From Siphonodentalium dalli (taxonomy: Eukaryota; Mollusca; Scaphopoda; Gadilida; Siphonodentaliidae): DNA of 64,000 bases. The stretch is taken from NCBI GenBank assembly GCA_032622095.1, contig CP136063.1, positions 8,905,814-8,969,813 of the forward strand, given 5' to 3'. The position numbers and the translations under genes were made by a program. Below are positions 646-64,000 of this stretch, in pieces. The notes beneath the pieces are model-generated. The model was not told where the DNA came from. It searched no databases and saw only the letters and a program-made list of their open reading frames with translations. Position 1 is the stretch's first letter, and each line of letters begins with the position of its first letter.

Positions 646-1420
646 GAGGCCTGTGCAATGGAATTTAGTCAATATGGGGGATACCGGTAGGTTGGTCTGA
701 CAGATCAACGTGGGGGGGTGGGGGGAGGTAGGTCTAGTTGGAAAGTTGGAAATTTCAAATTCGACACCCTACCGACAGAGGCCACATTTACACACTAGTA
801 TAGATTCCAGTTTTAACACAATTTCTTTAGTATAGTTTCAATAATATTGAACAAATCAAGAAGATTCAGATTGAATTTCATCACATTTTGTCAACTGGCT
901 CAGAAATAATAAAAACAACTGAACAATATGATGCCTTAAAGCTGCATAGTAACCTGAGTCTGTATACAATGGATATACACTCCAGAGGCATACTGACATG
1001 TGTGACCTGGGATCTGAAATTTACTGGGACTCCACGCTAACCTTTCTACTTTCCCCTATGGGCCATATCAATCAGTATGTTATTAAAACTCAATTTTGTT
1101 TGTTCATTTGTCTGTCCGGCTATTGGCGACAAAGCCGTTTAAACCATTGGAGCTAAACATTTTTTACAAATACATGTAGGTAAATTGATAAAATTTAAAA
1201 TTGTGCCCTGAAATCAGATGATTTAAAGCGGCTCTTGTGGTTGATTTAAGTAATTACAACTAAAATGGTTGGACCCACGGAGCTGAAAACAGTTACACGC
1301 GTTTAAATTCACCAGGAGAATGTTATGTCATAGGTCCCTTTGACCTCATATGATACAAAGGAGGACTACATTATATAAACAAAGATCTATATGATTAATA
1401 ATGAGTGTTTAGTATCAAAT
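646..1420. other. Unannotated intergenic stretch
   Basis: AT-rich sequence with G-rich patches around 700-730. No open frame, TIR pair or recognisable repeat was seen. Confidence 0.5.
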
Positions 1421-1645
1421 TATTAGCTCAACTTTACTTTGTAAAGTTTGAGGTATTGCCATGGCTTTGTCGTCCGTCATCTGTGAGCGTGTGTGCGTGT
1501 TCGTCAACAATACACAGGCTACAGGTCGTACCTTTGGTCGGATCATTATGAAATAAATCATAGCTGTTGACATCGACATTTAGACCGGAATGTTTCTTTT
1601 TGGGTTCATTCGGAAAAAACATAGCCGCCAGCAGCCATAAACACC
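1421..1645 (-). repeat. Family A (Helentron/pearl-like) copy, 3' end, reverse orientation
   Basis: Read on the minus strand this ends in the hairpin AGCTCAAACTTTACAAAGTAA followed by AGTTGAGCTAA, preceded by 'catggcaatacctcaaac' and a CGGACGAC-rich spacer. Inside is the module text 'ggtacgacctgtagcc..aaatttcat..gtcaac..gccgcc'. It is a truncated copy of the family arrayed at 27376-29757. Confidence 0.75.
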
Positions 1646-2495
1646 CCCCCCCCCAATCCAAATTCAGTTGACCGCCATCAATTTTGGATTGGGTGGGTTT
1701 GTGGTGACTCTTTAAGGCGTCTTGGGGGGCAACTTTGAATCAGTCGACCATTATGATTGGTTTGTTTGGGGAAAAAAAATCAGTCTTCGCAGTTCACATT
1801 GACCATTTAAGTCAAATTGCATTCTTTGTGTCACAATAAAGTGAACGATTCTGTTACTACTGTTAACACATAATTATATACAAGAAGGCAGTGTAACTCA
1901 CCGTAATTGATCATAAGTGGTGTAAATTCAACATAATTGATATTTCGTTTTTGCTCACTTGGTTATTTTCACGTATACTTCCCAAATAATAGTCATCGTA
2001 TTTCCCGGACAGAATCGACCATACCACTCGCTAAAAAACATCGTCTGAGACTACGCTCAATTGTAAATATTTATCTCGATTCAGGATGTAAATATCAGCG
2101 ACAAACTAAAACAAATGATTTCGCCATCGAGAATCATTGCATTCAATTAATATAAAATTATGGCTGTTTATATTGTCAATTTGGATTAATATTCGTAAAA
2201 AATAACTACTTTGAACAAGAACATTCTCAATTTCTATTTGATCACCCTACCGGAGTGTTTCACATCACTTTAATAGCACGGAGGAAATATAAATGAATCT
2301 ATTTTAAATCCAACAACGTATTGGGATACAAAACATATCCATGGTTTTATTAAACACGCCTTTGAATTATGAAAGAAGAAAGTAGACAAGAGGTGGCATC
2401 AGAGATGCTGTGTCTCGTTTTCGGTGGCTTACCGGTGGGCTACCGCCAAATCGTGGTGCATCAGAATCGGTAGACTAATTAATAGGTAAAATCAA
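1646..2495. other. Unannotated intergenic stretch
   Basis: It starts with a short C-run (about 1646-1654) and is otherwise AT-rich. A short open frame at 1937-2155 shows no domain, and no splice pair supports it. Confidence 0.5.
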
Positions 2496-48053: not shown

Positions 48054-49540
48054 TTCGGAAATCCGTAAACCAGGTGATAAAATATAAAATGCCTAATTCT
48101 CCATCTTTGTTCAAACTTAGATGCAGTATATACTAACTGTCAGTGGCATACATATATACGTTTCTTTCAATACAGCCACCATTCTCCGTTGGTATCGGTT
48201 GGTTAAATCTAGACTTAACGATGCGATCAATGCAGATAACTGTCCCTGTAAAAAGAAGAAATATACCATTACTAAGATAAGGCCATCTACGTCAGTCACA
48301 GTCTGGATATCTACAGATCCACCTGCATCAAAATCAGGGGATTCTGACTTGTATTCAAATATGGATTAGTTGAGCTGCAATATGTTTTCAAACAAAACAT
48401 GACATGAGCACTATATATTTACATAGCATGTGTGCTTCAATTAGAGCTGGGACGGTTATGCGGTTAACTATGGCCGTGACCGGTCACGGATTTGCCGTGG
48501 TCGGTTAACCGTAACATCACTATTATAGTGTATGATCACTGTGATGGTCAGCTATAACTGGCTATAAGAGGGTTAATCTGTCTCCGTCAATTAAAATGAA
48601 TCCGAGATTGACGGAACAACATCAAACGCGGTGTGTCGGCTCAAAAATCCAAGTGGGCTTAAACTCGGATATGGCCCTTTGCAAAAATGCAAACCAAAAA
48701 TCCTAAGAAATCGGGACAGTAAAACTAATGAAAGCCGATCTGACGCCGATTATTTGGGATTTTTTTCAATTAAATGTGAATATTAAAATATTATAATAAC
48801 ACTTTAAGTCTTGTAGTTTTATTGGACAACATTCCCATGTTAAAATGACACTATTATGTAAGTACATGTAGTCTTGACTGACAGCCGTCTTGTTCCCAAA
48901 GTGTATGCTTGGAGTCGGGAATGCCCTGGTTATTATGTAAGCGGCAATGTGGGTTATCTATAGTCTGACTATAGTTCCGATTTAATCCGATTAGGACTGA
49001 TTAGGAAAACAATAAGCCTGGCGCTTTATTCGTCATCCATTGTCTACATACATGGCAACTAATTGCATGTTTAACAAAAGCCAGTGAGTGTAATTACTTA
49101 ACAGCACTGACAAGGCAGTGGTATTTCTACTAAAACGGCATTCTGAACTCCTCGATCTGTGACCTCTGGGGGCAAACGGTGATGGAATCTGACGCGGTTT
49201 GCCGAATGCTAAAACGTATAAAAAACGTATACAAAAGCACGTGTTTGAATATTTTGGTTTCGAGTGAATAAAGTTGACGCAGTTTGGAAGACATTTTTGT
49301 TAATTGACAAACTTGTTCCTCCTTCTGTCGACTAGTCAATGTCGACTATCGTTTCAGCAATAATCAATTAGCAATCTCCTAGTTGACTAATTGACATACA
49401 TGTATTTCCCAGAAAGGTATAGATAAACATTACATTGGTAGCAATTAATCATTGATGCATTCGGTATACTTCCATATTTATCATTGCCCATGTGTACCCT
49501 TATAGTTTTGCAGTGTGTTTAAGGTGTGGATAAGGTGCTC
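48054..49540. other. Unannotated stretch with hAT-terminus-like inverted motif
   Basis: Near 48438-48515 'gagctgggacggttatgcgg', 'gtgaccggtcac' and 'cggttaaccg' form nested inverted repeats like a hAT MITE terminus. The partner end was not found. Around 49325-49395 are 'gtcgact'/'tagttgacta' motifs of a similar kind. No supported gene. Confidence 0.35.
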
Positions 49541-49544
49541 TTGT

Positions 49545-49955
49545 AGTGTGGGCCTAAAAGATGGCTGAGGTGTTACACCTCACATTAGGTGTGGGGGCTG
49601 AGGTGTGCCTAAGGTGTGGTTGAGGTGTGTCTGAGGTGTGGGGCCAAATATTTAAATGAGGCATGAGGTGTGGTTGTGGTGTGCCTTTGAGGTGTGCTTC
49701 TGAGGTGTTGTTATGGTGTGTCTGAGGTGTGTCTAAGGTGTGTCTGAGGTGTGCTTGAGGTGTGCCCATGGAAGTGTGCTTGAGGTGTGCCTATTGAGGT
49801 GTGCCTGAGGTGTGGGTAGAAGTGTGCTTGAGGTGTGGGTAGAGGTGTGGCTGAGGTGCGGGTAGAAGTGTGTCTGAGGTGTGCTTGTGGTGTGGATGAG
49901 GTGTGCCTATGGAAGTGTGCTTGAGGTGTGGGTAGAGGTGTGGTTGGGTGTCTGA
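49545..49955. repeat. GAGGTGTG minisatellite
   Basis: About 400 bp of imperfect ~10-12-bp units based on (t)gaggtgtg(c/t)(c/t)t, with higher-order repeats such as 'gaagtgtgcttgaggtgtg' near 49770, 49825 and 49911. Thr/His/Pro-rich minus-strand frames are artefacts. Confidence 0.85.
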
Positions 49956-50312
49956 TTTACTGTTTAACACCACTTCAGCAATGATGCCACATCATAGCAG
50001 CCACATCATAGCAAATGGAGCATGCATGTGCACCTCCACAGTGATGTGGTACGCGCCTAGTGAATGTATGCAAATTTGCCCTGACAACATTCATTCATTC
50101 TATATATATATTGTATATCTATATATTATATACCTGGGATTGGCTGGTTTATATGAACAAGTTCCCTGCAGTGTGGACACACATAACAACACAACTTTAC
50201 TTATTTCTCAGTATATTCATCCAGATTCTGATAAAATAACAGATTCAAATTATTTTTATAAAACATAAGCTGATCTGTAAATAGATAACATAGGTAACAA
50301 AATATTTAAACT
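49956..50312. other. Unannotated stretch
   Basis: AT-rich and without a supported feature. Confidence 0.4.
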
Positions 50313-50718
50313 GAAAGTGTCAATGACACTGTAGCTCAACATGGAGAGGTATTAATAATATTATGCTAAGCAGTCAATAGAATGATCTATTGCAAGAAGA
50401 ATGAAAGTCAAAAGTTTCAGTATTAAGGGATTGAATTGTATATCAAATGATTTTCCATTTCAAACATATCTCCATTAAATGAGAGCTGCAGCGTGTGTTG
50501 TTAGATATAAATGTGAAATCCAAGATGGCTGCTGGCAGCCATGTTTTTGAATGAAATTAATGGCTCCAGTCTAGAGGTCACCCTGAAGATACTCATAAAG
50601 TTTTTGTTGATGATCAAATGAGAGATGCAGCCTCTAGGGTGAGCCAAAGGAAATTGTTGATGGATGCAAAGACGCATGCCAACCCATGGCAAAAACTCTA
50701 GCTTGACAGCTAAAAAAA
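50313..50718 (+). mobile_element. Family A element, short copy with both ends
   Basis: The 5' end GAAAGTGTCAATGACACTGT then AGCTCAACATGGAGAGG matches 11117. The body has one module ('aaatccaagatggctgctgg', 'ccatgtttttgaatg') and the 3' end reads 'cccatggcaaaaactctagc', 'ttgacagctaaa'. The terminal hairpin is degraded. Confidence 0.65.
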
Positions 50719-50726
50719 ACTATTAT

Positions 50727-51361
50727 TATTAATCCTTTCTTTACTATTAAAATTGATTATCCCATTCAGTAAAAAATATATATATTGAAAAAAAAAATGG
50801 TCTATTACTCATTAGGGCTCCAACTATGTGCAACAAAGTGCATCGCAATGTTTAAGTGATGATGCGATGTACATTAGGATACAGAAATTCTAGTTATCAC
50901 TATGGATTAATTCAGCCTCCATTGCAGAAATCAAGTTAATCGCTGCCACCCACAGTGGCAGTTTCAACCTGATTCCCATAACTACGAAGCATAAATTAAT
51001 CTACAGTGTCTTCCTCATTGAATCCTTCTGTGAAACAAATGTTGAGAAACTCAATACTTGATTGTTATCAGCTAGCATTTAATGCAAAAGAATGCTTTTC
51101 ATAATCATACATTCCAGATGCGATGCATGAACAAAATTGTGATTGCATTGAAATGAAACATTACAGCCCTATTATTCATCCAGAGCGATGTTCAGGAAAC
51201 AGATAATATAAACAGATAACAAATAATATAAAGTGCAGAATAAATCCTATTCACTGGTGGGAAATGTTCAGATAATAAGTTCAACAAACACTTATTATCT
51301 GTACATTTCATAAGGGATAATTTACTCCTCATAGTATTTAGTAGAGAAAGGATTAATAATC
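50727..51361. mobile_element. Palindromic MITE, copy 2, overlapping the BEN gene's 3' end
   Basis: The ends ATTATTAATCCTTTCTTTAC (left) and, inverted from the right, ATTATTAATCCTTTCTCTAC differ at one position. The interior carries the GAAATGTTCAGATAATAAG / CTTATTATCTGTACATTTC stem-loop (about 51268-51309) shared with 4656-4714. It is split by the hAT element at 50813-51171. Its right end covers the TAT and TAA codons that terminate the BEN-domain reading frame (51353-51358). Confidence 0.75.
50813..51171. mobile_element. 359-bp hAT MITE nested in the palindromic MITE
   Basis: The termini TAGGGCT and AGCCCTA are inverted complements. The 8-bp flanks are ttactcat (left) and ttattcat (right), 7 of 8 identical, as expected for a hAT target duplication. 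The paralogous element at 4535-4740 has one uninterrupted 'ttattcat' at the corresponding place, a natural empty site. Internally 'gtgcatcgcaatg' and 'gatgcgatgcatgaac' form subterminal inverted motifs. Confidence 0.8.
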
Positions 51362-51501
51362 GAGGCGTCGAGGTAAACTTTTGCATTTAAAAGCTGAGAG
51401 CTTTCGTAACATGGTTTGCCGCAGTTCCCCAGCGGTGGCGAATTTTCTTGCTGCTCCTGTCCTTGAGTCTCCGCTGGGGTTTTGGTTTGCAACTGTCCAT
51501 G
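51353..51501 (-). CDS. BEN gene exon 9 (domain tail and stop)
   Basis: Acceptor 'cttgttacag'. Read in phase 1 it gives SWTVANQNPSGDSRTGAARK, then ELRQTMLRKLSAFK, the basic 'lR..l..K' end typical of BEN domains, and stops at TAA 51355-51353. The last codons lie in the right terminus of the MITE at 50727-51361. In another frame the exon is open to about 51322, but that requires a poor donor. Confidence 0.7.
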
Positions 51502-54500
51502 CTGTAACAAGAAAAAATTAATTAATTGTATATTTTGTTACCATCCCCCCTAAATTGCACCTCACTAATTGGTGACCTTAGTGACATAATCCAAACCAGG
51601 AGTTCAACCCAACAAGTTACCAGCACAGCTACCCGAAAAATAACTACACCAGTCAAAACTGATATATTTAGCAGGGATATATCCAGGCTATTTTTCATAC
51701 TGTTTACCGGTTTGGGCACCCAAGGCGCCCACAAAAAAAAGATTTGGACAATTTTTTTTTTTAATTATTTTTTTTTTCAATTTAGGTCCCAATTCATATC
51801 ATAACAAGATGCTAAATAATTATACACTTATACATATTGACATAAAACATTTAAGTTTAAAAATACGAAAACAGGTGTCCCCAAAAAATCCATGGATCTT
51901 TCACTGATTAATTAATGGTTATGAATGAGATACTTACAAACTATTGTTTTTACAATATTGCTGTCCAGATCTGATATTTTCATCCTGGACAGCTGCTCTT
52001 TGGTCCAAAAGACCCCCATGAAATGTCTGACCATCGCATGGGGGTCACTTGCCTTCGAAAGTGTAATGTTGTATTCATCGCAATGAACATATACATCTGC
52101 TCCAATGTTAATCATCTGTTAAATTAAACAGAAAAGTACCATATATACTTCATATATCTCTAAAAATTGTTGCATATGTAAGATTTCTAAAAGCATAAAC
52201 AATGTACCAAATAATGTAGAGCTGACATTAGAAGTACAATTATTGATAGGGAAAGATTTTTACTAGTTTGAGTACAGAAGTGAAATTTTCGAAGTTTATG
52301 TGAAAATGTGATTATATACTCAACATCTCATTTTTATTAATATTTTAATACATATGGCATATATGAGATACTTACTTGTTTTCTTCAAAATGGGTATTAA
52401 AGTTAGCAGGTTTTGATATATATAATTTTTTTTGCCAAATAATAACCCAGCACAGGTTTGGTTCATACTTTTTACCACTAAATTTCCTAGCAAGCAGGTT
52501 TTTATAATAATTGCTTTTTAACTATCAAACTTTTATTTTATTGTAAAAAAATTCACTTTTAATTTCCATATTGAAAGTGTTAATTCTAATACAATTAATC
52601 TAAACACAAGTTTTCACAACCAATTTACATCCATTTTATAAAACAAACTTACATATTTTTCTATTTCCTCGCTATTCACAAATCGTCCTGCATTAGGGCG
52701 GCAATATTGAGCACTTGATTGTGAATTAACATCTGAAATAAAAAAGTTTATGTAATTGTAGCAAAATTTTGACAACAACATATCTGACTATGCTAATAGT
52801 TACTACAGTAACTTAGTGTTGGGAGGTTATTGAATTTACATTTCTGTTTTTTGGGTAAAAAAAAACTCGGTTTCGGTTTTAGTAACCAGCAGAGGGTCAT
52901 AATAAGTTGGGGAACAGCTTGCTGTGTTGCTAAATCATGAACTTTAAATAATGAGAAAGTGAGATAAATGTCATATTGAACCATCAAGTTTAAGCAAACA
53001 CAAAATAGTTGTGCCCGACTGACCATATTTCTAGACGCTGACCCTAAACTTTTTTCCGACTATACACAAACATTTCGCCCATACCAAAATCAAAACATAA
53101 AAGGGAAATGCAAATACCGTGCGACTTACATTGATACCAATATCTTTTAAAGACAAGGTTGTGGTAATCAATCAGTTACAGTGTAGCATGTGCCCAGTTC
53201 CTCGACAATGATGACGTAATTACATGTTTGATGTTCCCACTCAGTTAGAGGTGAGAGGTACCGATATGCGCAAAAATAACTGTCACAATCAACAAGACAA
53301 AATAAGTGCATGTACATGTACACTGCAATTGGCCGGCTCAAATTTGTAATATTTGAACATTATAGATAAAAGTTCTATTTTATTGACCGATTAGCTGGAA
53401 GAATGAAGTTTCATAAATTGCAGTTCTAACTACCGACTTTATTTCCGCACGGAACGAAATGTTTTGTCATGCAAACGTCATCAATTCAAATAAAGTGCAC
53501 ACTTATTCTAAGAGAGTTGACAATACAGGTGACAAATTACTGACAAAAGTCAACAACCTACTGCATGTATTTCGTGTTGACTGGCCACTCATCGATCGAT
53601 CGTAGGTTCCAGAACAAAACGTTTCCGGACCATTTCCCACATGGTATAACATTTCTTTTTCAAGAATGGTACCAATTAAGTTAGCTTAAAATTAAATCTT
53701 TAATTTCATATCTCCTGCCTGGACATTTAAGCGTTATCTTACCAAAGGAGTTTTCTTTTGCAGCTTCTAACTGAGCTGTCAGTTGCTTGATAGATTCTTT
53801 GGCTGGAAAAAATATGCCATTTCATTAGTGGGAATATAAAAATGTTTGGTTTTTAAACTTCAAAAAAAAAAAAAAAAAAACAACAGTTGATGTTCTTTTC
53901 GCTTAAAGTTTTTCTCCACAAAAAATGTTTATTAATTTCAGATCTTAACAATATTATATATAAAAAGCTCCCCATGATGATTAATATTTGTGTCAAATTT
54001 CAAAAACAATGACGAAATATGTAGTTGATAAGTTGAAGTAATAAAAGCTCAAGCAAAAACATGTATGAACATTATTACCGGTACAGTAAAATAAAATAAA
54101 ATTCACTTCAAGTAATTCTTCACAGAAAACATAAATATCTGCTTTTTGCAGTACATGTATTACGGTATATATAAGTGTGCTATTATACCTTGCATAAGTT
54201 CTTTGCCTGCATTAATGCAGGCCTGATTACAGCACACCACATTCGACATGTCTGTGTAGTCCACATCCATTCTATCATTTTGCATCAGTTCCATATAGCT
54301 GTTTGGATAAGTGTGAGGTGATGGCTGCATATGTTGGAGTGGTGGTGTCTGCAAATATTGTGATGGCTGCATATGTTGGAGTGGTGGTGTCTGCAAATGT
54401 TGTGATGGGTATGTCGGCATATGTGGTGCTGTTTGCATATATGGTTGTAATAGTGTAGGTGTTTGCATATATGTATGAGATGGTGGAGGTGCTTGTAAAT

Positions 54501-57500
54501 ATGATGGTAATGGTGATGTTTGTAAGGGTGGTGGTGCTTGTATAGAAGAAAGTGGTGTTAGATGTAGATTTTGATGTAATGGTGTGGACGTCTGTATATG
54601 TTGAGTTGATGGCATGATCGGTAATGGCGGCAGTCCATTTTTCTCTGATTCTGTGTTATCTAAGGGAATATGGTACTAGTGTTGAAACAACTAAAGTATT
54701 TCGTAGTTGACTATAGTCAGCAGCCCCTAGTCGACACCTAGGCCTTCTATATATATAGAACAATCAAAATCCCACACAGGATTATCACATCGAGGATCTG
54801 CCCAGTTCAACGTGTTAGATAAGCTGATTTTTTAACAGTTGTTTGTTATCATAAATTTATCAAAACATGTATATTTATCCAGGGTTTCTGCTAGGGGGTA
54901 AGGCATCTGTCAGAAACCAAATGTACTGAATACTCATTCATTTCCGACAATTGCTGATGGTTTCCGGAGACAATGTGTTCATACACATATGAACACATTG
55001 ATCAATGCAGTTTGAACATAGATTTAGTAACATGTTGACTCAGTTGGCGTTATGTATCATAATGCTATGTCAAATTTAAAATCAAGCAATATCAAATCAC
55101 TGGAACTCATGAGATTGGTGCATTGTATATCATCGCTTGAAACTAACTGTATGTAATGTTCCAGCATTGTGAATGATAATAGCTTTTCACCGGAGTCAGT
55201 TTTAATAGGGTTTTCATGATAGTCCAGTTATATATCTACACTTGAAAATGGCCACAATAATGACCAGCACAATGTATCATGATGACAATGAGAAATATAT
55301 AAACAACTTAATACCTATCTTGTTGTTATCAGCTATCGGTAACGGCGGTCCATTTTCCTCCGATTCTGTGTTATCTAAGGATTTATGTACAATATAATTA
55401 GCAAATTACAGCCAGAGAAACAATGCTTATAGTATATTAAGAGCTATTGTTACAACTGTGGATACTGTATGCTACGGGTAATAATGTTGTCATTACCGGG
55501 GTATCATCCCCATTTTTCAAGTCAATTACTTTGAGGATAGTGGTAGATGTATTACAATGTATAGAAATATAACTCAAATGTACATACATGTAGAATCAGA
55601 CATACCATACAACACTTAAAGATATGAGCGGTGTTGGCGGTGGGTATGCTGCTAAAATATTCACTTCCAACAAAAACCGCCATAATGAGTAATAGTAGTA
55701 AAATACTATTAATTGCAAATAATATGCCTGCAAATTGTTACATTTTTATATTTTAATACAAATAATGATGTAACAATGATCATGTGAAAGCTCTTTATTG
55801 TTGTGTTTATGGTAATTACTTACTGGTTGTTAGGACCTCTGCCAGAAACCTCTCTTTCATGGCCTTCCTGTTGTCCACATGAACATCAGATTTGCCCACC
55901 GTCTTTTTGTTATGACTTGTCCTGTATGCACTACACTCCTGCTTAGATTCTAAAATATAAAAATAATATTAAACCAACTAAATATCAAATAAAAGGTCAG
56001 CAGACCACAGTGTCCCCCGAAAACGTGGCAAGTCGATGCCGCTTTGTTGAAGAAATTAAAATAAATGTTGAAAAGTCGAATTAAGTCAATAACTTCATAC
56101 AAAAATTAATTTTCCGACATCTACAGTATATGTATGTTCCACATCACCAATATGTGGGTAAGAACACTCTGAAGTTTCAAATAGCTATGATCAAAACTGT
56201 AGGAGTTGATTACACCATTAGGGTACCCTCATACCAAAAATTATAATTATATAACGGGAGATAATATTTCTTCCAAAATGGTGACTTGCTTATATAATGC
56301 ACATGCCCTTTCGTTAAATGCTACAATAGTATCCTTTCCCAGAAAGTTTGGTGATGATCGGTTGTTATCTGTAGTGTGTGCCAAATTGAGCTAGAAAATT
56401 ATTATTACAGATTTAGCAATGTTGCAGTTTTATTTTCATTACCAGTGGCAGTACTATTAGCTGGGTGTTTAATATATTATTCCAACTCACCACTCATAAA
56501 TTCCACAACTCCATCATAAATTGCACGATTCCATGGGGCCAAACATTGATCTTTCAATTGGAAATTAAATTCCTCTCCTGTTTGCACATCAGCATTACTC
56601 AAATTTGCCGCTTCAACAGGATAGCTCAACTCGCTATCCATGTTGAATTTCACAATATACCATCCTGCAATATAATAAAAATATAGATGTACATGTATGT
56701 ATGGCTTAGATCCAAGCGGTCAGAGTGAATTTTTTTAACTCAGAGATAAAAAATAGATTATAACAAGAGGTACGCCGGCACGTGGCATTTGCCCCGACCG
56801 TAGCAATTCAGATTAAGCATGGACAAAACTGGGGATATCCGAGGAGGTCTATGACTATGTGACCATTCCAAATAAAGTTCATACTAGAAATTCCGGAAAC
56901 CCAAAAACAAGCGATCCGGAAACCCAAAAACAAGCAAAAATTCAAATTTTCTAAGTTGAAAAAAAGGACCATAACTCTGGCAAAAATCATCAGATCATAC
57001 CCAAATTTGCACTTGACATGTATTTTCATATAACTGATCCACAAAAATACGAGATTTGCAATCTTACCACCAAAGCTCACGCTATCATCTGGAAACCCAA
57101 AAAACAAGAGAAAAATTTAATTTTCTAAGTAAAAAAAAGGGCCATAACTCTGGTGAAAATGGGTGGACGAAACCCGCGCTATGCATGTAGCTGTTCCCCC
57201 ATTCTGCTCTATCACCATACCAAATATCAGCTAGATCTGTCCAGTGGTTGCTGAACACTAATGCAAAATGTTTGTGCAGACGGACAAAATTGAATATTTT
57301 CTAAGTTGAAAAAAGGGCCATAACTCTGGCAAAAATCATCAGATCATACCCAAATTCGCACTTGACATGTATTTTCATATAACTGATCCACAAAAATACG
57401 GGATTTGCAATCGTACCACCAAAGCTCCTGCTATCATCTGGAAACCCCCAACAAACAAGAGAAAAATTGAATTTTCTAAGTAAAAAAAAGGGCCATAACT

Positions 57501-58150
57501 CTGGTGAAAATGGGTGGAGGAAACCAGCGCTATGCATGTAGCTGTTCCCCCAATTCTGCTCTATCACCATGCCAAATATCAGCTAGATCTGTCCAGTGGT
57601 TGCTGAACACTGATGCAAAATGTTTGTGCAGACGGACAAAATTGAATATTTTCTAAGTTGAAAAAAGGGCCATAACTCTGGCAAAAATCATCAGATCATA
57701 CCCAAATTCGCACTTGACATGTATTTTCATATAACTGATCCACAAAAATACGGGATTTGCAATCGTACCACCAAAGCTCCTGCTATCATCTGGAAACCCC
57801 CAAAAAACAAGAGAAAAATTGAATTTTCTAAGTAAAAAAAAGGGCCATAACTCTGGTGAAAATGGGTGGACGAAACCAGCGCTATGCATGTAGCTGTTCC
57901 CCCATTCTGCTCTATCACCATACCAAATATCAGCTAAATCTGCCAAGCGGTTGCTGAACAATAATGCAAAATGTTATTACGACGGACAGATTGCGATAAT
58001 TGCCAACCAGACTACTAGTAACTTACTAAGAGTAAGATCGCGAACTTATAAAAGTTCAATTTCAAATTAATAAAGACTTATATACTTACGTTTTTCTTCA
58101 ATAAATCTGCCAGGTATCTTCACTCGTCTTTTCTCATTAACGGCTGACAT
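51353..58150 (-). CDS. BEN-domain protein, nine exons, 452 residues
   Basis: Coding exons: 58150-58090, 56664-56491, 55949-55824, 55374-55315, 54659-54189, 53802-53743, 52732-52653, 52115-51938 and 51501-51353. All have GT-AG borders and agreeing phases (six phase-1 introns, one phase-0, then phase-1), total 1359 nt with stop. The protein begins MSAVNEKRRVKIPGRF. Next comes a WYIVKF-type SH3-like module (about 21-78), a basic segment, a Pro/Gln/Met-rich region (about 155-275), a short Cys pair with coiled coil (about 280-317) and a C-terminal BEN domain (about 344-440; DVYVHCDEYNITLSKA, PHAMVRHFMGVFWTKEQLS). BEN domains bind DNA or chromatin factors, so a nuclear regulator or a transposon-encoded DNA-binding protein fits. 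It is divergent from the Tnp2-like gene 2.7 kb away. An alternative final junction in phase 0 would give a different tail; the consensus donor favours the frame used here. Confidence 0.85.
51938..52115 (-). CDS. BEN gene exon 8 (core of BEN domain)
   Basis: 178-nt exon between acceptor 'tgtttaatttaacag' and donor GTTT|GTAAGT. It encodes the conserved first half of the BEN fold: YVHCDEYNITLSKA (start of helix 1), PHAMVRHFMGVFWTKEQLS, and SDLDSNIVKTIV, the position of the usual 'LDP.KV.AI'. These are the residues on which the family call rests. Confidence 0.85.
54189..54659 (-). CDS. BEN gene exon 5 (Pro/Gln-rich, internal repeat)
   Basis: 471-nt exon, the largest of the gene. It is a low-complexity Pro/Gln/Thr/Met sequence with a 13-residue tandem duplication (LQTPPLQHMQPSQ followed by YLQTPPLQHMQPS), visible as a 39-nt repeat near 54340-54400. 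It ends with MDVDYTDMSNVVCCNQACIN. Its first ~40 nt duplicate exon 4. The region is likely disordered. Confidence 0.8.
55315..55374 (-). CDS. BEN gene exon 4 (duplicated mini-exon)
   Basis: 60-nt symmetrical phase-1 exon encoding NTESEENGPPLPIADNNKI. The start of exon 5 encodes NTESEKNGLPPLPI from almost the same bases after a similar 'ccttag' acceptor, so the two arose by tandem duplication. Because it is symmetrical, skipping it keeps the frame. Confidence 0.75.
55470..55543. mobile_element. Right-end fragment of the 43756-type element
   Basis: 'attaccggggtatcatcccc' then 'gtcaattactttgaggatag' ending TGG before TA (55544-55545) matches the right end at 46000-46046. It lies in intron 3 of the BEN gene and the left part is missing. 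Confidence 0.65.
56935..57990. repeat. 351-bp tandem repeat, three units, BEN gene intron 1
   Basis: Units begin 'ctaagttgaaaaa' at 56951, 57301 and 57653. Each contains 'gggccataactctggcaaaa', 'cttgacatgtattttcatat', 'gggccataactctggtgaaa' and 'ctagatctgtccagtggttg', so one unit holds two gggccataact modules. Units 2 and 3 are nearly identical, implying recent duplication or conversion. Minus-strand frames across it (57301-57570, 57653-57961) are repeat artefacts. Confidence 0.85.
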
Positions 58151-60152
58151 ATTTATTTGATGACACCTAAGTTTATTCGGTTTTTAAGTTCGCTAGTTTA
58201 TTTTTTGTAGTCGTTAAATTTTGATTGAAATAGCGCGCCAATTCAAAGAGAAAAAGCTACACAATTTCGCATTCCGGTTTATTTTCGAACTACTTGGAAA
58301 CAAGGAAAGCCGGGAATTCTTCATGTGTAATATTTTAATCGATGTTGCAGAGTTCGTATTTACCGAGTATTAATTGAAGTTTTAATGGTAAGATATGTTA
58401 TACTCAGTCAGTAATTGATTAACCACGAGATGGATTCGAAACTGATTTTAAGATACAGAGCTAATTCGTATTTCACTTCCGTGTTCAGTTAAAAAAAACA
58501 AAATGCACAACGCTAATTAACGTACAAATTAACACGCACAAACGTATATGACAAGATATCACAGTGGTTCCAGCTCTGATAATACTTAGTTCCTGCCACA
58601 TTGTGGAGGTAAAATATTTGTCAATAATTCCTTGTTTTCAAATTTAATCGAATCAACCATGGACGTATATACATCGCTGAATCAACGAATGAATCGAGTG
58701 CCGGTACCGGTAAAATACTAAATACGATATTCGATATTTGAATTTGTTGCCAGTAAAAAACAACATCACAAGTACGAGTTGATCGACAAATAACGTGATC
58801 CGTCTGGAAATTAAACCAAGTTCTTTAGTTATTTAGATGGTAGTACTTAATTAATTCTTAATTATGACCGGAGAACATGCAGACCCCAGAGTAAATTTTA
58901 CACACCACATAAAGGTTGAAATTGTTCCACATTCCAACCAGTGAATCATGCAGTGGGTGTGTACATTTTTTGTTTTTAGCTACATGTATATATATAGCTA
59001 TAGCTAGACCTATACCGGTAGTTAGTATTGCTATATATAGCAGTTAGTTAGTATTGTTGTGGTAAATTTCTAGCACAGGCAAAAAACCTGGTGACCTCAT
59101 CTCAATGTATCTGGCGGTGACGCCGGTGTGGCGGAGGCTTATATTACTTTGAAGTTGATCAAAGACGGCCATATCTTTGCTAATCAACTTCAAAGAATCG
59201 GCGCCTATCGTGACCGTTTTTATTTGGTGTGACACAATTGATCCGAGTGTGAGTACGTGAGTTATAACTTGTCAACGCAATTGTTTTTGATGTGAGACTA
59301 CTAGTACTTTGTGAAGTCAATCAGTGACAATAACACTGGGGGGGGGGAGTTTGAAAACAACAATGTTCTATTGGATGTAAGCACCTAGCTGTAATGGGCC
59401 AGTTGACCATACCATATAGATTTTAAAGGAACATTTTTACAACAAAATGCATGGCGCTTTCTTGATCAATGAGGTGTTTGTCACTGCCGTTTAGATATAT
59501 ACATCAACTGGGTTCTAGTTTGATTATCATAATACATCATATACCTGGGACAAATTAATAACCTACGGTAGCTACCGTATTAACCTTCAGTGCTATTAAG
59601 CCAAATAATCACTTCAAATACACAGGTCCCCAGAACAAAAATTGACCCCACCGCCAATAATACTTAATCCTATAGAAAGGTATCCAACTTGGCCCGGCCT
59701 AATTTTTTTATTAGTTTTACAATGTCCACAATCAGGTTAAAATACACCAAAATAATTTTTGTAACATAAATGCCTCATATATAGTTAGAAAGATATGTTA
59801 TTACTCTTCAATTTGATGCATCCCCTGTAAAAATTGGTTAAGAAAAACTCTGGTTATGAGCACAGGTCTGACTGTAAAATTTCACTCGTTCGACATGATG
59901 TCCGCTAAACTCGGTTAAAAAGTGCGATTTTTACACCGACTTGGGCTTCAAAAACACAATCGACGGTTAGTAGAATATATATATTATACATCATTAGCAG
60001 CGGAATTGTTTACTGACCCACCCAAACCAATCACGCTACATCACGGCATCGTATCTCTCGTATTTATTGAAAAATTCAGTTTCATAAACCCGGAAGGAAA
60101 GTGAATTTTTCCAAAGACAGCCATTGGTGTTCGGGCGCATATGTGTACTCTC
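58151..60152. other. Divergent intergenic region between BEN and Tnp2-like genes
   Basis: About 2 kb that should hold the 5' ends of both genes. It is AT-rich with 'tatatatagc' patches near 58985-59040 and a G-run near 59339. No frame or repeat was recognised, and no promoter can be assigned confidently. Confidence 0.45.
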
Positions 60153-60328
60153 TATAGTTCATACCCAACACAATATATAGTTAAATAAATACACAAAGAC
60201 TGAATTAACACGAATGCCGATTTGAAAACATACATATGGACAGAAATATAACTCTATAAATATTTAGAGCGTATATACAGTAGTATACACTACTTCTTCG
60301 TTATATATTATGTTGGGTATGAACTATA
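60153..60328. mobile_element. 176-bp hairpin MITE
   Basis: The left end TATAGTTCATACCCAACACA is inverted at the right end as TGTTGGGTATGAACTATA, with an extra AT extension on both sides (about 27 bp paired). No ORF. It sits in the intergenic region upstream of the Tnp2-like gene. Confidence 0.75.
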
Positions 60329-60848
60329 TGTTCAAATAGTGTTAAATCATGTCTTGCTTTCCATTCAAAAAAGCTAAGTTGGTTACTCAAAACTGCAATA
60401 ACAAATTATGTTTGTACAGTATATGGTCACAAAACGGTAAATGTCAGAATATAGTCGACTAGTAGTCGATTACCTCTGGCAACTAGTCGACTCCTTAGAA
60501 TCGCTATATAATCATTTCAACATTTATAATATATAATACATCAGCGACAAGGTTCACATGTCCGATTTTGGCAAAAACACACCAAGCAGAATTTCATACA
60601 ATTCTGAAGCAACGTCAATTTCAATTTATCATAAGTGCTGAAATTAAACCTGGTTCTAGCTACCTACAGTCACTTCACAAATGTTTTTTTTATTTATACT
60701 ATTGTATTATATATACTGGTCTTGTATATGTACACGTACTGTATCTACATGTACCGGCACTGCAGCAGTATACTGCTTCACTTCACTTTTTCAACTTCAT
60801 TTTGATTAATCATTTATATAATCTATTACAGATTATAGCACTACAGAG

Positions 60849-63340
60849 ATGGACAAAAACAAACAGACTCAGAAGAGACGGGGCCCATACTCCTTGTATA
60901 AATTGGTTGATTCTGCAAACATACCAAAGACGTCAGCCAAGAGAATGAGAAAAATGGAAAGATATTTGACAGAAGTTATAAATGTGCCTGATTCCTGTGA
61001 ATCTGATTGTCCTCATGATCAAAATGAAGATGATTGCACAAATGAAACAGCAGGACTTCCTGAACCTTCTGAACCAGTTGAACTAAAGTCTGATGATGAA
61101 GAAGAAGAAGAGATTGAGAACACTAATGATGAATATGATGAAAGAGAACAGTATTCTTCCAACATGGGAGTTAATGTTGAGGAAAGAGCAACTGCTATTA
61201 ATGATGCCAGTGAACAAACTATTTGTCCAGGTTCAAGGCTGACAATTGCATCCAGTATGCTCCTAATCATCACATTTGTATTACGTCACAAATTGTCAGG
61301 AGATGCACTCTCTGATCTTCTTTCACTGATTGAGTTGCACTGTATGTTACCTAATATGTTCTCAACATCAAAAAGAATGTTCAGGACCTTCTTCCAGGAT
61401 ATAAAGTCACCTATAGAATTCCATTATTACTGCTTAACATGCTCAAGCTACAATGGCAAGGAAAACACAACATGCATTGTATGTGGAAAGGAACTAGCGC
61501 AATATTTCATTGTCATACCTTTGATTCCACAGCTGATAAAAGTCATAGAAGGTGAGTATTGGTTCTATCTTCTTCGGAATGACCAAATATACTTCATCCC
61601 CACTTTCCAGTGAAATGAACAACAGGCTGGTCATGATCGGCATATGTTTTTAACCCAACCCTCGTCAATATTATATAATATTATCTGAATCATAATTTAG
61701 TGTTTTGATGTTGAATTTTAGAATAATTATTATCGGAATCATAATTTAGAGTTTTGATGTTGAGTTATATAGTACATGATTATTGTTAAGTACTATTATA
61801 GACAAATGAACAAAATAACACAAATTCATTGAATTTAAGTGTCAAATAGGGAGTTGGGATATATGTAATAGAATGCACTGGCATGATGGGTTATTGTGGC
61901 AAGAATTTCATTCCTTGCGCTCTAATATTGATATTTTGTTTTCACATTGTTGTTTTCAGCCAATGTTGCAGATATTTTGTCATATAGGACAAAGCGCACT
62001 AAGGTAAATCCTGAAAGTATGGAGGACATCATCGATGGGAAACTTTACAGAGAGATATTCCATGGGGAACATTTTGTTGGAACATCAATGGAAGACAAGA
62101 AGAAGGAAATTCATGTGTCTTTGCAAATGAACACAGATGGTGTGGCTTTGTTCAAATCCTCCAAATTCTCCGTATGGCCAATATACATGACTGTGAATGA
62201 AATATCTCCAAAAAACAGGTATGATCTCATTGACACATCAAAATATATATTTACCCGACAGTGATTGTTGCAATAGGTGTGTAAATGCTTACATTGTAGT
62301 TAATTGCCTAATTGTGGAAACAGTACATTTTCCCTATAACCAACATATTAAATAGTGAAATTTGTTATGGATGTTAACAATGACATGTAGATGGGAATGA
62401 GTCCTTTTGGGGTTATTCGGCTAAAAAACATGGCCGCTGGCGACCATCATGGATTTTAAAATTAAATCCATTGGCGCGAGCTACAGGTCGTACTATTCGT
62501 CTGACCATCATGAAATTTGTCATGGATGTTAATATTTACATGTAGATGGGAAACGAGTCATTTTGGTGTTGTTTGGCCAAAAAACATGGCCGCCGGTGGC
62601 CATTTTAGAACTTATTCGTTGCATCACTAAATCCTTTGGTACACCAAACTCACCACATCTCTGATCTGATCATTTATATGAAACTTGTCATGAATGTTGA
62701 TATTGACATGTACAACTTGTCTTACTTAAACATTTCACCTTTCCTATTCCTCCATTTTCTGTCAACCATTAAATTATTCCCTACCTAAGTTGAGCTGCAG
62801 TGTCATTGACACTTTCATTTAGGAACCGCCGGCGGTCCATCATGCATTCCCATTCTTATATTGTTTGTATGTTTGGCTATTCATAACAGTGAAATTAATG
62901 GTTATGTTCGTTCTTATTATAACCTTGACATTGCCGAGAAATGTGCTGATATTGAATACATTGCGCTCATTAGTCATTACCGGTGGTTTATATTGCACAT
63001 TATTAGCGTAAAAGTTACATCAGCCGAGGTTTTTAACCAACACCCACACAATAGGCCATATTACGGAATACGGTACTTCTACTGTAATTGATATTGATAT
63101 TATGTTCGATTAATCGATTATTGCTGACCAGTTATCGATTATCAAAACCATAATCATGGCACCTCTATGTGGTTGTTTAGTGTTTGTACCGGTACATTTT
63201 CATTCAACACATAATTAATGTTTTCAGGTTTAATCGGTCAACACGAATTTTTACTGGTATTTGGTTTGGAAATACAAAGGCAAACATGGACATATTCATG
63301 GAACCAGTCGTTAAGGAACTCAAGGCATTGTATGATGATG
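60849..63340 (+). CDS. Tnp2-like (CACTA/EnSpm-type) transposase, N-terminal part
   Basis: Three exons with agreeing phases: 60849-61551, 61960-62218 and 63228-63340 (1075 nt, 358 codons, open at the last donor). Donors are GAAG|GTGAGT, ACAG|GTATGA and GATG|GTAAGT; acceptors are 'ttgttttcag' and 'aatgttttcag'. The protein has a basic start (TQKRRGPYSLYKLV), an acidic run (81-100), a helical block SRLTIASSMLLIITFVLRHK and a CxxC..CxxC zinc ribbon (C195, C198, C209, C212). It then has IPLIPQL, the diagnostic NTDGVALFKSSKFSVWPIY, and FTGIWFGNTKANMDIFMEP. These motifs and their order are those of animal Tnp2-type transposase proteins. The catalytic acidic residues would be downstream, outside the window. 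An acceptor just before the ATG (AG at 60830-60831) suggests a 5'-UTR intron. Autonomous or domesticated status is unknown. Confidence 0.8.
61625..61855 (+). repeat. Dispersed repeat in Tnp2-like intron 1
   Basis: Homologue of 6825-7035, with an extra tandem duplication here: '(t)atctgaatcataatttagt' plus 'gttttgatgttgaatttta' is followed by 'atcggaatcataatttagag' plus 'ttttgatgttgag', about 55-70 bp apart. Confidence 0.65.
62345..62816 (-). repeat. Family A copy in Tnp2-like intron 2, reverse orientation
   Basis: Read on the minus strand, the 5' terminus GAAAGTGTCAATGACACTGC then AGCTCAACTTAGG is at 62816. Modules of the 'ggccgccagcggccatg' type follow down to about 62350. The 3' hairpin is absent. 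Confidence 0.75.
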
Positions 63341-64000
63341 GTAAGTAAATTGACCCCATCATGAACATCATGTATAACGACAGCTACACGATACTAGTAC
63401 TGAGTCTGGAGAAAATAAAGTGTTTTTTTATTAACACCAGTGTCAGCCAACCGCAACATCTATCAGCAAAGAGATGCAGTATCATGGAAAAGTTTAGGGT
63501 ATTGTCAGAATTTCTATAGAGTGGTAAATTTGCCACATAGCTAAAACTAGCACTATTAAAATTGTCTGTCACATTCATAATTTCACACAGAGATTACGAC
63601 AACTAAACTCTAAAAGCATACACGAAGAGTCCATACTTGACCAATAATACCTAGCAAGGAGAATATAAATTGTAATATTCAATGCAGTTTCACTCCATGG
63701 AACGATAGTGGATCATGCATTGAATGTTCATAGTTTCATGATCATCATAGAAAAAGGCCTTGGATATCCCTTTAACTTTTCTGTTCCTACTTTAAACCAT
63801 TGTTTAAACTTTAAACCAATGCAAAAATAAACAATGCAAGGAAAGCATTATTATAGAATGTAAATTATATTTCTGAATGCATGTCTCCACAGAACCAATC
63901 AAGCTTTCTTGAAGATGGTCTATCTCTTCCTATAACAGGTTTTATATAGTTTCCTGGGTATTAATATTAAAGATACTCAATCCGATAAAACTCCTCTCAA
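63341..64000 (+). other. Window end: intron and possible further exon of the Tnp2-like gene
   Basis: An acceptor-like 'catgtctccacag' ends at 63892. In phase it would add only EPIKLS before TGA at 63910-63912. Either the true next exon lies beyond 64000 or the gene is truncated here. Confidence 0.35.

Follow-up and report, generated by a model that had tools for sequence, protein, structure and literature searches.

Plant CACTA transposons of the En/Spm kind, represented in maize by an element with the proteins TnpA and TnpD, combine a Tnp2-type transposase with a separate second element protein. Their ends start with CACTA or CACTG, their target duplication is 3 bp long, and they carry subterminal repeat arrays that are bound by the second element protein. 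The BEN-domain proteins (PF10523), among them NACC1, BANP and the BEND proteins, have been described as DNA-binding, mostly with chromatin-related functions. In animals, the TRC elements (SmTRC1 of Schistosoma mansoni and elements of Tribolium castaneum and Aedes aegypti) feature a Transposase_21 domain and inverted repeats that start with CCC (DeMarco 2006, PMC1636069), and 2-bp direct repeats flank 7 of 14 SmTRC1 copies (PMC1636069). Here, we analysed a window of 64,000 nucleotides from the scaphopod Siphonodentalium dalli (GCA_032622095.1, contig CP136063.1, positions 8,905,814 to 8,969,813), in which an initial annotation had described a BEN gene and a Tnp2-type transposase gene lying head to head and had suggested that they form one two-gene mobile or domesticated system. 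The contig, referred to as C3, measures 301 Mb in a genome of 2.23 Gb and nine contigs. We consider it highly probable that the pair constitutes one animal CACTA-related (TRC) DNA transposon with two divergent genes, one for a Tnp2 transposase and one for a BEN-type protein.

The window element and its ends

We identified a transposon of 17,852 bp (C3:8955310 to C3:8973161) that contains both the BEN-type and the Tnp2 gene. Its in-window part occupies positions 49497–64000, and the remaining 3,348 bp lie to the right of the window and finish at C3:8973161, which corresponds to window coordinate 67348. The left terminal inverted repeat, CCCTTATAGTTTTGCAGTGT, lies on the plus strand at 49497–49516 and matches the right end at 20 of 20 positions; the right repeat, CCCTTATAGTTTTGCAGTGT in inverted orientation, is located at window coordinates 67329–67348 (L001 3329–3348). 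The ends start CCCTTATA, and the perfect 20-bp repeats are bordered by a 2-bp target duplication, with TA at 49495–49496 on the left and TA directly after the right repeat. This form of end was first recognised by comparing two 98–99% identical copies of another Tnp2 family. A first guess at the end, CACTGTGAGGTGTGG, was derived from the right subterminal array and gave no match in the window at up to three mismatches; the true ends lie just outside the array. Immediately inside the left repeat, a subterminal array of GAGGTGTG-type units covers positions 49517–49955 on the plus strand, and the right array falls within the last 750 bp of the element, beyond the window end. The unit GAGGTGTG occurs 17 times in the left 500 bp and 10 times, plus twice reversed, in the right 750 bp, with no occurrence in the 16.6-kb interior.

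The initial annotation had proposed that sequence to the right of position 64000 would reveal inverted ends starting with CACT(A/G) and a 3-bp target duplication, bracketing both genes. On examination of this sequence, inverted repeats and a target duplication were found to enclose the two genes, in agreement with a single two-gene mobile system, and the layout was encountered in two other Tnp2 families as described below. The predicted details had to be revised, as the ends start CCCTTATA and the duplication is 2 bp long.

As in plant CACTA elements, a Tnp2-type transposase is accompanied here by a separate second element protein, and the element has subterminal repeat arrays, made up of GAGGTGTG. 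In contrast to plant CACTA elements, the ends are CCCTTATA rather than CACTA or CACTG and the target duplication is 2 bp rather than 3 bp. Both En/Spm proteins are derived from one spliced unit (PMC1636069), whereas the second protein of the window element is of BEN type and has its own divergent gene. The similarity to TRC elements covers Transposase_21, CCC-starting ends (20 of 20 positions matching) and a 2-bp duplication. SmTRC1 differs from the window element (17.9 kb, two divergent genes) in its length of 4.5 kb and in the production of several proteins through alternative splicing (PMC1636069). No mention of a BEN gene was found in the available part of this TRC account (PMC1636069).

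The ends of the window element are mobile, and many shorter copies carry them as well. A genome-wide search for the 20-mer CCCTTATAGTTTTGCAGTGT with up to two mismatches returned 115 sites (56 forward, 59 reverse), as opposed to five (4 and 1, respectively) for the reversed control. The 100 sites listed include 37 adjacent pairs less than 25 kb apart, all 37 of which face inward; the window pair exceeds the others in length, 27 of which measure 0.9 to 1.6 kb and nine 2.5 to 8.6 kb. Of the remaining 36 listed pairs, L047, L048 and L049 were examined in full. Their terminal regions are ~80–85% identical to those of the window element, with the left array of L047 positioned 1.8 kb inside, and a search at E 0.1 detected neither Tnp2 nor BEN in any of them. 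We observed 2-bp duplications in all five elements examined at both ends: the window element (TA), L047 (CA), L048 (AG), L049 (TA) and element B of the second family described below (CA). Rfam at gathering scores produced no match in the window.

The BEN-type and Tnp2 genes

The two genes contain introns and are arranged head to head, with coordinates and a spacing of 2.7 kb between start codons as initially annotated. The shared upstream region (positions 58151–60848; 2,698 bp) would be expected to act as a divergent promoter. The BEN-type gene is located on the minus strand and comprises nine exons encoding 452 amino acids; its introns have GT/AG borders and consistent phases, and the reading frame contains no internal stops. 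Exon 1 (58090–58150) carries the start codon at 58150 and is followed by exons 2 (56491–56664), 3 (55824–55949) and 4 (55315–55374). Exon 5 (54189–54659) is rich in proline and glutamine and has internal repeats, exon 6 (53743–53802) was judged by eye to be coiled-coil-like, and exon 7 (52653–52732) precedes exon 8 (51938–52115), to which the core of the BEN domain is assigned. Exon 9 (51353–51501) supplies the C-terminal part of the BEN region, and its stop codon ends at 51353. Intron 1 includes three copies of a 352-bp unit (56937–57975, 95% matches), which is dispersed since similar units (~90–95%) are present at C5:127.29 Mb (L041).

We take the product of the minus-strand gene to contain a divergent BEN domain on the basis of profile–profile comparison. 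The exon-8 family, which consists of the window exon and exons at C5:127.30, C5:204.46, C3:200.30 and C3:36.47 Mb plus one C-terminal exon from C3:39.67 Mb, was aligned by hhalign to BEN loci from this genome that exceed the Pfam threshold (probability 88.8, P 2.5e-6, 65 columns). Six loci of the genome lie above this cut-off, and three of them, two being near-identical, served as the reference. By the same comparison, the predicted BEN domain is C-terminal and follows low-complexity stretches, as in known BEN-domain proteins; it differs from these in residing inside a transposon beside a transposase and in being missed by the Pfam BEN model. When the window BEN region was searched against PDB sequences, the only matches were six LRP6 sequences with E values of at least 1.4, which we attributed to chance. 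DUF4806, termed a BEN subtype (PMC11075544), had no matches in this genome or in 14 control genomes, and this test was uninformative because the control genomes also gave none.

The Tnp2 gene is encoded on the plus strand. Its start codon lies in the exon at 60849–61551, which is followed by exons at 61960–62218 and 63228–63340, the latter being the last coding exon within the window. The joined exons match Pfam Transposase_21 (PF02992) with an E value of 3.6e-19 (69.3 bits; cut-off 28.6) and also match DUF1258 (E 3.9e-8), with a Plavaka match under the cut-off (E 6.4e-4). The Tnp2-type assignment of the initial annotation was thus confirmed by Transposase_21, with the qualification that the gene runs past the window to window coordinate ~66217 (L001 about 734–2217, plus strand) and that its frame is broken. 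Compared with a copy on contig C7 that retains an open frame of 483 amino acids (93.7% identity over 1,891 bp), the window frame is interrupted at two places. Because of these breaks the window copy is decayed and has lost the capacity to encode a full transposase, whereas its BEN gene is still open.

Divergent pairs elsewhere in the genome

The divergent arrangement of a Tnp2 gene and a BEN-type gene recurs in at least two other families of this genome. The second family is represented by element B (C3:51266299–51279691; 13,393 bp), the ends of which share CCCTTATAAAAAAGTACCAT, start CCCTTATA and are bordered by the CA duplication given above. This element has an open Tnp2 frame of 776 amino acids that is ~35% identical to the window Tnp2, and beside it a divergent multi-exon gene whose last two exons were recognised as BEN by eye. 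The BEN part of this accessory protein matched Pfam BEN with an E value of 0.0082 and the full-length protein with one of 0.02, spanning model positions 1–75 of 76; a phmmer search of 13 genomic regions with the accessory protein returned nothing. The subterminal arrays of element B are dense at both ends (GTACCA/ACCATAGTA types). Among the matches listed, the multi-exon accessory gene lies beside and divergent from Tnp2 at five loci (C1:40.06, C1:272.12, C2:216.41, C3:51.27 and C3:66.34 Mb). Ends of this family enclose both genes at C1:40.06, C3:51.27 and C3:66.34 Mb, the last with a decayed Tnp2, and at C1:272.12 and C2:216.41 Mb the BEN-side end alone was found (up to one mismatch). Copies of the second family that are 98–99% identical carry both genes, which therefore moved together. 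Some shorter end-to-end copies retain the last exon of the accessory gene (e.g., at C3:179.12, C3:229.74 and C6:52.08 Mb), a pattern such as internal deletions would give.

Two further observations concern this family. Tnp2 loci at C1:95.47, C1:256.58, C3:138.51, C6:215.90 and C7:27.56 Mb have a second-family-type end downstream (one mismatch) and no detected BEN partner. A stretch judged by eye to be C2H2 zinc-finger-like (L035, about 400–2500) adjoins the BEN-side end of the copy at C1:272.12 Mb.

In the third family, the locus at C3:88.30 Mb (L019) combines an open Tnp2 frame of 865 amino acids with a BEN exon that lies on the opposite strand, 3.3 kb upstream. This exon scored E 6.1e-4 (20.4 bits) against PF10523. 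A genome search with it gave 69 matches at 66 loci, eight of which are within 15 kb of Tnp2, all eight divergent. An in-house BEN profile was applied to 14 regions and, after addition of the third-family exon, to seven. As the window and second-family exons, and later the third-family exon, were used to build this profile, their own scores in it are circular; before its inclusion the third-family exon scored E 0.078, and its support rests on Pfam.

For genome-wide statistics, we counted 131 BEN/accessory loci and 109 Tnp2 loci, with same-strand matches within 8 kb merged. The Tnp2 candidates scored amounted to 78 of 379, 52 of 497 and 49 of 447, and those of the second-family accessory to 100 of 386. 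The 49-of-447 set was left out of the 109 loci, as nearly all of it overlaps the earlier lists; an earlier count had used 71 Tnp2 loci. Within 15 kb, 14 of the 131 BEN/accessory loci pair with 14 Tnp2 loci, and all 14 pairs are divergent. In 2000 local shifts of 50 kb to 3 Mb, the mean number of pairs at this distance was 0.52 and the maximum 4, none of the shifts reaching 14. The corresponding values were 11 pairs against a control mean of 0.38 (maximum 3) within 10 kb, and eight against 0.23 (maximum 3) within 5 kb. The initial annotation had raised the question of whether, in related genomes, a divergent BEN gene lies within about 5 kb of Tnp2-like genes more often than expected; within this genome it does. 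Three same-strand neighbours join the 14 divergent pairs when the distance is raised to 30 kb. By family, the 14 pairs are distributed as one for the window, five for the second and eight for the third, and they do not represent independent origins; removal of the seed loci (C1:272.12, C3:51.27 and C3:88.30 Mb) and of the window leaves ten. Because inverted repeats enclose both genes and the pairing is seen genome-wide, we conclude that it exceeds chance.

Two decayed loci were left out of the pair counts. At L027 (518–1076), a window-type BEN exon and a Tnp2 fragment lie in overlapping frames on the same strand, and at L042 and L028 (about C3:200293114–200295529) such an exon lies 1.6 kb from a Tnp2 fragment, again on the same strand. 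These are either rearranged elements or another layout.

Role and origin of the BEN-type gene

With a second, BEN-type gene, the window element has a candidate counterpart to the second DNA-binding protein of plant CACTA elements, and we favour, with moderate confidence, a role of the BEN protein as a partner in transposition. In such a system, the Tnp2 transposase would recognise and cut the CCC ends, and the BEN protein would bind the subterminal arrays and pair the ends or aid assembly of the complex, or would control the shared divergent promoter. The position of BEN beside Tnp2 would then be comparable to that of TnpA beside TnpD in maize En/Spm. NACC1 has been reported to favour sites containing CATG, and the left array of element B, which contains TACCATGGTA (six occurrences in the left 700 bp, one in the right 1,200 bp and none in 9.4 kb of interior), would fit this preference, which is suggestive. 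CATG is enriched on the left side of element B only (15.7 per kb compared with 6.1 in the interior and 4.2 on the right). In the window arrays CATG is not enriched (4.0 vs 6.1 per kb), which counts against such a preference there.

In the strongest alternative, the element encodes BEN as a regulator that acts outside the transposition complex, as a repressor or anti-silencing factor at the divergent promoter. The chromatin-related roles described for BEN proteins and the 2.7-kb upstream region shared by both genes are consistent with this possibility. On the other hand, the dense subterminal arrays at both ends of the window element and of element B resemble those that the second element protein binds in plant CACTA transposons, and we consider a purely regulatory role possible and less probable than participation in transposition. 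Domestication, in which the host would have kept BEN or both genes for a regulatory role and the ends of the transposon would be a relic, seems improbable. In its favour, all nine exons of the BEN gene form an open frame next to the broken Tnp2 frame, and exon 5 compared with its nearest paralogue gave a ratio of nonsynonymous to synonymous substitution rates (dN/dS) of ~0.56. With 147 codons, all from one repetitive exon, this ratio would indicate weak constraint at most; moreover, the ends still match at 20 of 20 positions and the target duplication is intact. Nothing decisive for domestication of the window pair was found.

Several observations weigh against a regular partnership of BEN and Tnp2. 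As to the domain itself, the BEN gene of the initial annotation is upheld by hhalign to same-genome loci and not by Pfam, as the window protein had no match to Pfam BEN at the gathering cut-off of 23.2 bits; the second-family accessory (16.8 bits) and the third-family exon also fall below this cut-off. A single-sequence hhalign comparison of the second-family accessory with the same-genome BEN loci was weak (probability 1.8, P 0.027). Window and second-family accessories reached a best BLASTP E value of 0.061, with parts that do not match each other, and an hhalign probability of 0.2; with no significant similarity between these two accessory proteins, more than one acquisition of BEN is possible. 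As to the pairing, the queries for the second and third families were taken from loci that had initially been examined for their Tnp2. Within 15 kb, no BEN partner was detected for 95 of the 109 listed Tnp2 loci and no listed Tnp2 for 117 of the 131 BEN/accessory loci, including second-family multi-exon sets at C3:294.2–294.5 and C5:41.27 Mb. The window-type pair was seen once in the window's own family, and of the 13 loci that matched the window BEN protein, all except the window locus itself lie farther than 15 kb from a listed Tnp2. No BEN match was found within 26 kb around the C7 Tnp2 copy, which is 5′-truncated, nor was BEN recognised in ~16 kb upstream of a C2 relative of the window Tnp2 (48–74% identity by exon), for which a putative right end lies 3.1 kb downstream. 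Likewise, the BEN/accessory queries found no partner at the 12 loci of a Tnp2 family with a 909-amino-acid open frame, and inspection of L015/L016 and L017 for a BEN gene found none; no inverted-repeat end was recognised at the left border of L015/L016.

Some of the unpartnered loci are fragments; others may belong to families whose BEN is too diverged for the three queries, or to elements without BEN. The initial annotation had regarded complete Tnp2-like elements lacking BEN as evidence against its proposal, and the loci with long open frames and no detectable BEN are perhaps in part such elements. BEN is not universal among the Tnp2 elements of this genome. A single capture of a host BEN gene by a Tnp2 element, as a passenger between its ends without a role in transposition, would agree with the single pair in the window's Tnp2 family and with the 95 unpartnered loci, but is very unlikely given two further families with the same divergent layout in 14 of 14 pairs, far above the shifted control, and second-family copies that carry both genes.

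We found no report of an element combining BEN and Tnp2 among the titles and abstract beginnings in the literature searched, with Repbase and most subscription journals outside its scope; in the available part of PMC5704228, the term “BEN domain” occurs solely in the reference list. A division of labour between two proteins is known from plants, and we found no report of an animal precedent in that literature. Should the transposon with its BEN-type partner be as we propose, animal CACTA-related transposons would gain a named second component, and it would become testable whether plant and animal branches share two-protein transposition with unrelated DNA-binding partners. Transposon accessory genes would also be a possible source of the BEN domains of chromatin factors and viral proteins, and some “expansions” of BEN genes in animal genomes may be transposon genes. 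The broader idea that BEN plus Tnp2 is an ancient two-gene architecture of animals, in which BEN corresponds to plant TnpA and from which many BEN genes of hosts and viruses descend, is put forward tentatively and seems to us doubtful at present.

Other Tnp2 and BEN-like sequences were observed in this genome. Short BEN-like open frames of 71–76 amino acids with near-identical scores are dispersed (e.g., C6:220569166, C6:226227328, C4:178827689 and C1:55061306), all of them more than 15 kb from any listed Tnp2 locus, and are perhaps another BEN-bearing repeat. The 12 loci of the 909-amino-acid Tnp2 family are distributed over C1, C2, C3, C4, C5 and C6 with equal or near-equal scores and are apparently recent. 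Twelve Tnp2 copies, also with equal or near-equal scores, with open frames of 462–482 amino acids and one TAG each, extend over 5 Mb at C7:18858383–23974190, representing a local burst or a segmental amplification.

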